Below, one piece after another: positions 36,783-42,087 of a stretch of 64,000 nt of DNA (position 1 is its first letter; each line of letters begins with the position of its first letter). Under the pieces are notes generated by a model. The model made no database searches and had not been told where the DNA came from. It was given only the letters and a program-made list of their open reading frames with translations. The position numbers and the translations under genes were made by a program. The stretch is from Wuchereria bancrofti. Lineage: Eukaryota > Nematoda > Chromadorea > Rhabditida > Onchocercidae. The stretch is from contig SSBO01000010.1 of NCBI GenBank assembly GCA_005281725.1, positions 248,001-312,000 on the forward strand, read 5' to 3'.

Positions 36783-36867
36783 CTAACAAATTCGAAAACA
36801 TTAAAATTAAAAATTTGGAAAACATTAATATTAAGTTAAGAAAAAGCGACTTTTAAAAAATCCGAAA

Positions 36868-38350
36868 TATTAAAAAAGTATATCCAACACGTCAACCTCA
36901 CGTATAGCATTATTGAATTTTGGTATTAAAAAAGTATATCCAACACGTCAACCTCACGTAATAGCATTATTGAATTTTGGTATTAAAAAAGTATATCCAA
37001 CACGTTAACCTCACGTATAGCATTATTGAATTTTAGTATTAAAAAAGTATATCCAACACGTCAACCTCACGTAATAGCATTATTGAATTTTGGTATTAAA
37101 AAAGTATATCCAACACGTTAACCTCACGTATAGCATTATTGAATTTTAGTATTAAAAAAGTATATCCAACACGTCAACCTCACGTAATAGCATTATTGAA
37201 TTTTGGTATTAAAAAAGTATATCCAACACGTCAACCTCACGTATAGCATTATTGAATTTTAGTATTAAAAAAGTATATCCAACACGTCAACCTCACGTAA
37301 TAGCATTATTGAATTTTGATATTAAAAAAAGTATATCCAACACGTCAACCTCACGTATAGCATTATTGAATTTTGGTATTAAAAAAGTATATCCAACACG
37401 TCAACCTCACGTATAGCATTATTGAATTTTGATATTAAAAAAAGTATGTGCAACACGTCAACCTCACGTATAGCATTATTGAATTTTGGTATTAAAAAAG
37501 TATATCCAACACGTCAACCTCACGTAATAGCATTATTGAATTTTGATATTAAAAAAAGTATATGCAACACGTCAACCTCACGTAATAGCATTATTGAATT
37601 TTAGTATTAAAAAAGTATATCCAACACGTCAACCTCACGTAATAGCATTATTGAATTTTGGTATTAAAAAAAGTATATCCAACACGTCAACCTCACGTAA
37701 TAGCATTATTGAATTTTGGTATTAAAAAAGTATATCCAACACGTCAACCTCACGTAATAGCATTATTGAATTTTGATATTAAAAAAAGTATATGCAACGC
37801 GTCAACCTCACGTAATAGCATTATTGAATTTTGGTATTAAAAAAGTATATCCAACACGTNNNNNNNNNNNNNNNNNNNNNNNNNNNNNNNNNNNNNNNNN
37901 NNNNNNNNNNNNNNNNNNNNNNNNNNNNNNNNNNNNNNNNNNNNNNNNNNNNNNNNNNNNNNNNNNNNNNNNNNNNNNNNNNNNNNNNNNNNNNNNNNNN
38001 NNNNNNNNNNNNNNNNNNNNNNNNNNNNNNNNNNNNNNNNNNNNNNNNNNNNNNNNNNNNNNNNNNNNNNNNNNNNNNNNNNNNNNNNNNNNNNNNNNNN
38101 NNNNNNNNNNNNNNNNNNNNNNNNNNNNNNNNNNNNNNNNNNNNNNNNNNNNNNNNNNNNNNNNNNNNNNNNNNNNNNNNNNNNNNNNNNNNNNNNNNNN
38201 NNNNNNNNNNNNNNNNNNNNNNNNNNNNNNNNNNNNNNNNNNNNNNNNNNNNNNNNNNNNNNNNAACCTCACGTATAGCATTATTGAATTTTAGTATTAA
38301 AAAAGTATATCCAACACGTCAACCTCACGTAATAGCATTATTGAATTTTA
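36868..38350 (+). repeat. 56-58-bp minisatellite interrupted by a sequence gap
   Basis: Units contain AAAAAAGTATATCCAACACG, TCAACCTCACGTAATAGC and ATTATTGAATTTTGGTATT. About 17 copies precede and about one and a half follow the gap. Sub-variants (CGTATAGC versus CGTAATAGC, TATATCC versus TATATGC, GGTATT versus AGTATT) alternate in places, pointing to higher-order units. As 57 is a multiple of three, some frames stay open over several units, but in none is the frame kept along the array. It lies between two minus-strand genes, possibly in the 5' part of the gene ending at 32285. Confidence 0.95.
37860..38264. other. 405-base run of N (assembly gap)
   Basis: Undetermined bases inside the minisatellite; true copy number is unknown. 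Confidence 0.99.
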
Positions 38351-39166: not shown

Positions 39167-42087
39167 TTACAATGAGCATTTAACACCCGTAGCATTTGAA
39201 GTTTTGCTATCATACATTTTCTTTTGAGATCTTCTGGATGGTATCGGTAAGCAAACACCATTTTCAGCTAGTGCTTCTGCTTGACTCAAAGCAACTCGAT
39301 CATTTGCTGGTTGAAATTTTACCTGAAATTTTGGTCATTTGAAAAATACTGATGTTTTCAAATAAAGCAATTGATGTTGTCAGTGAAAAGATTCGCTTTA
39401 TCTTTCAATTCTTATCAAATTTGTATATTTTAAACTGATGAAAGTCATACTTTGATGTCTTTACATAAATCCATGATCCTTAGATATTGATCATGATACC
39501 TCACATAGGATCCATTAGCTTTTAACCACTGACGTGAATGATGAACCAAAAAAGAGACGCAATCAGTGCGAAGGACAATGTTGCGGTAATTTTGGTTTAC
39601 AGCCTAAAAATTCCTTCTTAAGACTACAGCATTATCTAGTAATTAATAGGAAAATCATAAATATCTTCAAATGATTTATGCTTGCTTCATATAAAAAAGA
39701 AAATAATCATAGATTTGAACCTTATGATTGATTACCTGTTGCAGCGCATCAATTATAGCTTGTAATTGACATCGAACTAAAGTTATAGGGTAGAAATTAT
39801 AACGTCTTCCGATACCTAATCCCTGCTCATGTGGCCAATAAACACCACAACCTGCCTTGACATACTTCTTCTCATTTCCTTCGACATGTAAAACGCCACA
39901 AGTATAAACAATAGGAACATCGTCACTCGATAGGTTTTTGGAAGCACTAGAAATAAACAGTTTAGCAAAATGGATCAGTTCATCAAACAAATCTAAACTG
40001 TTTCAAAGACCAAAAACCATACATATCTATTTTTGATGCTGATTAATCAGACTTTCAAATAATTTTCATGCTTACCAATTTTTTGAATCTGCTGATGATG
40101 TTTCTGGTATAAACATATCTGAAATTATGTAGATGACAATTTTTCATGCAGCAACATGACTTCTACCAGAAACAACTAGAATTATCTGATCATTCGTGTC
40201 ATAGAGGACTGCAATTTTGCAACCAGAAATCTATTGTTATTAAAATAATAGCATTTTAGAATAGATTCATAAAGAACAGAAATCAAATGAGCGAAAATTT
40301 CATTCAACTTACATATCCTACATTTCACTGCTATTAATTTCTACTTACTGTATAAAATATTTATCATTTACCTATGCTTCTCTTCTGCACTTTTTCCAAA
40401 GTTGCTCTTGATGAAACTACTGGAGAGAGCTTCTTCTCCGGAATGATTTCAGATTTCCGCTTGCTCACCTTTCTACTCATTAGATTTTCAAAAAATTTCT
40501 TAGCTGTTTCCTCAGTGGAAGAACTGTACTCAATAGTTGCCTAAAAAGCGTGCGTAATTACTTCCAAGACTTTAAATAAAAATGCATGAAGGAATAACTG
40601 GAATTCTTTGGAAATGATAATTAGTGCATAAAATATGCTTGCTTTAGCATGAAATGAACAAATATGACAAAAAATACATTAGAGATTAAAGTACGAAAAA
40701 ATACAACGCTAAATTGATGTATTCATACATCGATCATATGCAATAATCGATATAAATCTTCAGCTTCGGCTAAACACAAACTAAACGTCATCGATTTTTG
40801 TTGTAGAAATTCATCTAAGCTCCACCATAATGATGTTTTACCAAAATGCTTCCAAACAAATTTCGAATTTGTAACAATACGAACGCGTGGTAAATTCATT
40901 TTGAAAACTGCCTGCAATGCTACAATGCTAAAAATCAAACATTAACATTGAGCAATATTGTGATTTTCAACCTTCTAATTTTTCTAAAAGTAATCGTATC
41001 AAATCAGCATAATTTTATTGAAATAGAAAATTGACATATAAAGAAGAATAGCATACTTGCTTCAATGCCAAGCAAACAGCTTCAATTTCAGCTTTCTTTG
41101 TCGATCTTACTGGATGCTCCTATAAGAAAATAAGTAACATAGTTTCGATTTTTTGTTAAAGCGACATTTAGTAGCAATTACAGAAAGTCTTAGCAGCTCT
41201 TGTTCATGAAAAAGTCTACCAGAACAATTAAAATTAAAAAAAAGAACACCTTGATTCGATTACATTCGCTATTATCATCCCAATAAACTGCTATAATTGG
41301 ATTGTTCAAATTATCAGGGATATGTACAAAAGCTTTTACAATTGGAACACTGAAATATATGACAGAAGTAAACAAGAATTTTAATAATTCTAAAGTGGTA
41401 TAATTCTTCATCAAACTGAAACAAAATACTTTATTACTACTGCTCTAAATTCATCATTTGATCAAATTAAACTAGTGATTTAAGTTCCGTTGTATAATAA
41501 ACTCAAAATTCTTGAACTATGCTATTGGATTTGTTTTTATGAAGTTCATAAATTTATAAAAATACAGTTCTAGTCTAGCATTCTACACTACACAATACGG
41601 ATTTATAGTTTCAATTTTCTTCTTTCTTCAAGGGACGTTTAATTTTAGTCGAAACAATATCAACAATTAGAATGCACTCCACCTTATGAACAGGTGAATA
41701 AGAACAGCTGTAGAATATGACCGACGACAATTTAATCAACAAGTGCACAAAATTTAATAGCTTAATAGATCAACTTCTAACAACACAATTTTTCATGTAT
41801 GACAAATAATTCAACTAAGTTAGCAAACATCTTATATAACAAAAAAAAAATGAAATGATAAAAAATTAGTACTTATTCCAATTATTTGATGCTTCCGATG
41901 AATATAGCAATCTGCTATTATTTTTTGAGGATGTATTTCGACGTACACGTACGTCAGTGTACAGTGCTGATTGGCGATTAATAAATGCAAATGTAAATGT
42001 TCGTTTGCTAATAACAGGATGAGTAGATATAATAAACTGTAGCGGTTTCAGCCGGTCTATAACACGAGAAAACAATATGGCTCTCAT
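39167..42087 (-). CDS. double RNase H-like protein, catalytically degenerate, probable mitochondrial
   Basis: Nine exons join in phase: 42087-41873, 41349-41250, 41119-41057, 40911-40729, 40540-40372, 40118-40076, 39946-39736, 39603-39451 and 39322-39167, giving 430 residues. The N-terminus (MRAILFSRVIDRLKPLQFII) is basic, hydroxylated and nearly free of acidic residues, like a mitochondrial presequence. Domain 1 (about 72-190) has an RNase H layout: IVKAFVHI, KKAEIEAVCLAL and VRIVTNSKFV. Domain 2 (about 267-400) has IVYTCGVLHV, AGCGVYW, VRCQLQAIIDAL, NIVLRTDCVSF and SQAEALAENG. Active RNase H1 uses D, E, D, D. Domain 1 keeps only the E (E116), with F79 and N141 at the first and second Asp positions; domain 2 keeps only D342, with C274, Q318 and E395 elsewhere. 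Both domains therefore look inactive and may bind nucleic acid or a partner. It is divergent from ARID4, 860 bp away. Confidence 0.82.

Follow-up and report, generated by a model that had tools for sequence, protein, structure and literature searches.

What is the role of a protein that carries two RNase H-like modules, neither of which has kept its set of catalytic residues? The question is raised by a gene of the filarial nematode Wuchereria bancrofti. The window analysed here is a stretch of 64,000 nucleotides (contig SSBO01000010.1, positions 248,001 to 312,000 of the forward strand), and the gene, which we call the double RNase H gene, lies at 39167-42087 of this window on the minus strand, from the stop codon through the start codon. 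Its product appears to be a former RNA-cutting enzyme that was turned into a binding or scaffold protein. The account we put first, at a confidence somewhat short of even, is that of a two-module protein of the filariae and Thelazia, derived from RNase H1, catalytically dead and probably mitochondrial, which arose by fusion of the types represented by the two other RNase H genes of the genome (designated C2 and C3) and acts as a pseudoenzyme at a nucleic-acid or protein site.

The state of the active sites was read from an alignment of 10 rows, i.e. the window protein and nine of the 11 proteins found by a single-protein search; P0009, a fragment of the same protein, and P0010, a second Dirofilaria immitis model in which the second module is broken, were excluded. 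The catalytic sites are numbered as in E. coli RNase H, and the modules are called D1 and D2. An earlier note, made from the DNA letters alone, had named E116 of D1 and D342 of D2 as the sole canonical acids, and this holds: the other sites are F79 and N141 in D1, and C274, Q318 and E395 in D2. The D10 site of D1 is F in seven of nine rows and S in two, the E48 site is E in 9/9 and the D70 site is N in 10/10; the D134 site is alignment-dependent: one alignment gives K in eight of nine rows and E in one, and a second alignment gives R in the row of W. bancrofti. The D10 site of D2 is C in eight of ten rows and R in two, and its E48, D70 and D134 sites are Q, D and E, respectively, in all ten. 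In other words, the ortholog comparison proposed in the note finds the DEDD set broken in every row (9/9 for D1, 10/10 for D2). Each module has one canonical acid per row in place of the four of the RNase H1 enzyme, and since this defining catalytic set is absent we would not class the protein with the RNase H1 enzymes. That the changes are identical in every species seen also makes a sequencing error unlikely. At the catalytic His, D1 has a gap and D2 has R or Q; D2 has also lost most of its protrusion segment. Because both active sites are lost while the folds appear to be retained, we regard the protein as a pseudoenzyme; it may bind in the manner of the RNase H1 enzyme, though it is not classed as one.

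D342 and E395 of D2 are both retained in 10/10 rows, and with this pair D2 could bind one metal ion, i.e. the protein could be a residual or altered enzyme. We consider this very improbable, given that D2 has C or R for the first Asp and Q for the Glu in all ten rows, and that the column of the catalytic His holds R or Q. Judged from the sequences, residual catalysis is ranked far last, after the binding and the scaffold readings.

The RNase H fold, which the note had assumed for both modules, is indeed predicted for both by structure prediction, and the best structural match is eukaryotic RNase H1. The predicted local distance difference test score (pLDDT) of the D2 model is 53-88. The alignment for the D1 model included canonical RNases H, and two of the 14 matches of a search with C2 (P0015 and P0021) were left out of it. 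Two points weigh against the fold assignment of D1: the canonical RNases H in the alignment may themselves favour an RNase H fold, and the model built from orthologs alone reaches a pLDDT of 46-63 only. At the sequence level, the whole protein passes the Pfam cut-offs of RNase_H (PF00075; 33.1 bits, cut-off 25.8) and of RVT_3, a family of RNase H type (PF13456; 24.3 bits, cut-off 21.6). The single modules are under the PF00075 cut-off (19.9 and 18.1 bits), and D2 alone passes that of RVT_3 (22.6). A search of the genome with PF00075, exon by exon, gave four matches at two loci, C2 and C3, and the double gene was not among them. RNase_H and RVT_3 are the only families listed in the double protein by a Pfam scan up to E 10, in which filters drop most weak matches; the hybrid-binding domain PF01693, the helix-hairpin-helix family of TEFM and any polymerase domain were not listed. 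The gene model opens with exon 1 directly ahead of D1, with no upstream polymerase in the protein.

Nine exons, joined at GT-AG splice sites, make up the gene and give 1293 coding bases and 430 residues with no internal stops. The junctions are based on splice-site letters, open frames and the match to database models, and the exons, frames and length agree with the claim of the note that two RNase H-like modules lie in one 430-residue protein. All exons are on the minus strand. Exon 1 (41873..42087; residues 1-72, the last codon split; donor gtacta) has the start codon, the presequence-like N terminus and a spacer. D1 begins with exon 2 (41250..41349; residues 72-105), which covers beta1-beta3 and has F79 in place of the first catalytic Asp. 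Exon 3 (41057..41119; residues 106-126) encodes helix A with the retained E116, and exon 4 (40729..40911; residues 127-187) runs from beta4 to helix D, with N141 in place of the third Asp. Beta5, helix E and the start of the linker are in exon 5 (40372..40540; residues 188-243), and the linker continues in exon 6 (40076..40118; residues 244-258), where codons are split at both ends. D2 is encoded by exon 7 (39736..39946; residues 258-328), from beta1 to helix A, where the first Asp is replaced by C274 and the Glu by Q318; by exon 8 (39451..39603; residues 329-379), from beta4 to helix D, with D342 retained and the protrusion segment largely deleted; and by exon 9 (39167..39322; residues 380-430), with beta5, with helix E, where E395 replaces the last Asp, and with the tail and the stop.

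Orthologs speak for an intact gene, as the note had maintained. Both modules are present in the models of eight other species at 68-89% identity: Brugia pahangi (89% identical), Loa loa, Cercopithifilaria johnstoni, Acanthocheilonema viteae, Onchocerca flexuosa, Dirofilaria immitis, Litomosoides sigmodontis and Setaria digitata, the last of which lacks the N terminus in its model. The remaining three of the 11 proteins are a Thelazia callipaeda model that begins inside D1, a W. bancrofti database fragment identical (100%) over residues 1-237, and the second, damaged D. immitis model. We find it barely credible that the gene is a decaying pseudogene or an error of the gene model. Two models are incomplete (P0010 of D. 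immitis and P0011 of Thelazia), and the models of L. sigmodontis and S. digitata continue into additional exons, which would fit such an error; against it, eight other species have both modules in one model, the W. bancrofti fragment is identical, and the modules are more strongly conserved than the linker. The genome searched (86.5 Mb in 108 contigs) showed no second copy: the eight matches of the B. pahangi ortholog (E up to 1; seven candidates scored) are all at the gene's own locus.

The 3' side of the gene has a 57-bp minisatellite (36868-37859, 17.4 copies, 94% match), which abuts a stretch of N at 37860-38264. Further on, two minus-strand pieces of open reading frame (33401-33015 and 32500-32297) are clear matches to the C-terminal extension seen in P0007 (L. 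sigmodontis) and P0008 (S. digitata), and upstream pieces at 36786, 36163 and 34268 match the same extension only weakly. The region 33401-32297 (minus strand), perhaps from 36786, is either a separate downstream gene that was merged in these two models or a set of alternative 3' exons. The scan of this flank for promoters and terminators used a bacterial consensus and is uninformative.

A profile search with the ortholog alignment returned again the 11 proteins only, among 6471 candidates. Neither search found a similar protein outside Thelazia and the filariae; the choice of candidates is word-based and can miss distant relatives, so that absence elsewhere is not proved. None of 84 stretches of viral contigs that matched a pattern encodes a relative (tblastn). 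The literature searched (titles and starts of abstracts) gave no report of a nematode RNase H that is tandem or inactive by nature, and LOAG_10639 and WUBG_11325 did not occur in the papers listed. In C. elegans, RNH-1.3 is treated as an RNase H protein for which contact with RDE-3 is predicted (PMC11717427).

Where did the two modules come from? The two other RNase H genes of the genome provide the comparison. C3 (C3:884392-885430) is a canonical RNase H with the DEDD set kept. Beside it lie six hybrid-binding motif matches, five of them over the PF01693 cut-off (L015-L020, C3:886466-889571), which suggests that the locus encodes an RNase H1 with several hybrid-binding domains. C2 (approximately C2:405373-406896) is a single-domain gene with four exons in our splicing, 256 residues and all four acids. 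Its N terminus is presequence-like, with five K+R and two D+E in the first 40 residues. The search with C2 found 14 proteins, 10 without a hybrid-binding domain and four with it (three of these from fish), and nine of the 10 come from filariae, Thelazia, Toxocara, Ascaris and Anisakis. In C2 an insertion of some 20 residues (L006:1686-1897) separates the catalytic His from the last catalytic Asp, and the aligned nematode relatives have it as well. Since C2 and C3 each have four acids, the worm apparently has two active RNase H genes beside the dead double protein.

Within the domain, D1, D2, C2 and C3 have two phase-0 introns in the same alignment columns, the first close to the end of helix A and the second ahead of beta5, which argues for descent from RNase H1-type genes of the host. 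An origin from a retroelement is rejected, as both of these introns of the modules recur in the other two RNase H genes of the host. An additional intron of D1, after residue 105, is absent from D2, C2 and C3. The upstream phase-2 intron splits the codon one position before the motif [VA]-P-[IL]-V in both D1 and C2; it lies 10 codons before the motif in D2 and 15 in C3, the linker exon of C3 being our own model. By profile score, D1 is nearest to C2 (51.0), followed by H1/C3 (46.3) and D2 (23.7), and D2 is nearest to C3 (101.3), followed by H1/C3 (96.1) and C2 (69.6); the BLASTP comparison agrees. In a tree of 32 rows, in which the C2 type is represented by seven of the ten matches and the worm's own C2, D2 joins C3 (95/82) and D1 joins C2 (84/51). 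From the introns, the profile scores and the tree we favour the view that D1 is of the C2 type and D2 of the C3 type and that the two were joined by fusion.

An internal tandem duplication of one RNase H gene, with both copies decaying, is an unlikely but serious alternative. It would explain the two phase-0 introns common to D1 and D2, but C2 and C3 have these introns just as well, so that they do not discriminate. The tree leaves room for it: a D1+D2 clade has a log-likelihood only 2.61 lower and is unrejected by the approximately unbiased test (p-AU 0.225). D1 and D2 do not resemble copies of each other, however: they have no mutual BLASTP match, their profile score of 23.7 is the second lowest of eight pairs (only D1 against the single C3 sequence, 22.3, is lower), and the upstream phase-2 intron differs, D1 agreeing with C2 and D2 being nearer to C3. 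Fusion has points against it as well. Besides the low score of D1 with the single C3 sequence and the unrejected D1+D2 clade, the D1-C2 grouping is unstarred and joins long branches, and groupings of D2 with C2 (p-AU 0.199) and of D1 with C3 (p-AU 0.24) are also unrejected.

The location of the protein was judged from its N terminus, which the note had described as a presequence. The first 40 residues contain seven K+R and one D+E; K-R-[TA]-[FI] is found in all eight covering rows and the net charge is positive in seven of them. For comparison, 1316 internal 40-mers were taken from the retrieved proteins and the window protein; they overlap and come from related proteins, and hence are not independent trials. 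A charge as high with acids as few occurs in 15 of them, and nine of these 15 also match the hydrophobic moment. Judged by this composition, mitochondrial import of the double protein is likely. Two observations weigh against it: the O. flexuosa N terminus is neutral (three K+R, three D+E), and the hydrophobic moment is unremarkable, being equalled or exceeded by 595 of the 1316 internal windows.

What the protein might hold was approached through the contact sites of human RNase H1, mapped onto the modules via a fish RNase H1; we take T181, N240, W221, W225, F213 and R179 to be the contact residues. T181 corresponds to S in D1 and to T in D2. W221 is retained by D2 alone (10/10 rows), W225 by D1 alone (9/9 rows), and F213 by both modules. 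Nothing can be concluded from the R179 site, where the active C2 and C3 enzymes lack R as well. N141 of D1 corresponds to the site of human D210N, whose hybrid complexes have solved structures, and a Drosophila RNase H1 D252N without hybrid-binding domains still bound hybrid, according to PMC7657459. Binding is weakened as a reading by the partial retention of the hybrid-contact residues, above all by the N240 site, which is lost in both modules (L/S/F in D1, Y in D2), and by the near-complete loss of the protrusion in D2. The clustering of invariant columns is likewise unfavourable: the densest 20-residue run is at chance level (p 0.22 and 0.44 for the two modules), so that no binding face stands out.

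A pure protein scaffold, for example a component of the nematode mitochondrial ribosome, a TEFM-like clamp in the transcription machinery or a partner of C2, with no nucleic-acid contact of the RNase H1 type, is a doubtful explanation but one to be taken seriously. The lost N240 site, the absence of the catalytic His from both modules and the mostly missing protrusion of D2 fit it, as does the precedent of TEFM, a mitochondrial elongation factor and pseudonuclease that clamps DNA with an RNase H-like domain, as described in PMC9950373. The retained T181 (as S/T), W225 in D1, W221 in D2 and F213 in both argue for contact with nucleic acid instead, and the changes to N141 and Q318 are near-isosteric, a type of substitution that can preserve a binding surface. 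Weighing these sequence features, we rank mitochondrial binding of nucleic acids or hybrids first among the possible functions, with the protein scaffold close behind.

The sequence of events under the fusion-and-binding account would be as follows. A C2-type paralog with a presequence (D1) and a canonical C3-type RNase H1 (D2) would have been joined; both modules would have lost catalysis and retained their folds, and the protein would be imported into mitochondria. There it may occupy RNA/DNA hybrids, or another nucleic-acid or protein site of the nucleoid, without cutting, and so may shield or organise sites otherwise open to processing by the active C2 enzyme. A bolder version, which we consider rather improbable, places the joining of a mitochondrial-type and a canonical RNase H1 gene in a common ancestor of Thelazia and the filariae, with catalysis lost but the fold retained in both modules, and makes the product a lineage-specific mitochondrial nucleoid factor that holds hybrids or organises replication despite the worm's active mitochondrial RNase H. 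A natural, conserved and doubly dead RNase H would be a rare case of an enzyme turned binder or scaffold, and if it is mitochondrial it bears on how nematodes handle the primers and R-loops of their mitochondrial DNA.

Among known systems, catalytically inactive RNase H has been made in laboratories as a hybrid sensor (for example PMC12134985). TEFM has a helix-hairpin-helix part. It resembles the double protein in being mitochondrial, a location that is predicted in our case, and in its RNase H-like pseudonuclease core (PMC9950373), but there is no evident sequence kinship; TEFM was not among the 50 matches listed per fold search, which does not exclude a TEFM-type domain. In the dual RNase H of retroelements the modules follow a polymerase, and one is dead and the other active. 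Such dual domains, described for retroviruses and Athila/Tat elements in PMC9040795, share with the double protein the presence of two RNase H modules per protein, whereas the latter has no polymerase, both modules dead and the introns of host RNase H genes. The C2-type nematode RNase H is like D1 in its positively charged N-terminal exon, which ends in phase 2 one codon ahead of the domain, but it has one module with four acids and the catalytic His retained. Eukaryotic RNase H1 (C3, human RNASEH1) is the best structural match and shares the predicted fold of both modules and, in C3, the positions of the domain-internal introns; it combines one catalytic DEDD module with a hybrid-binding domain, whereas the double protein has two modules with DEDD broken, and a hybrid-binding domain was not found in it.
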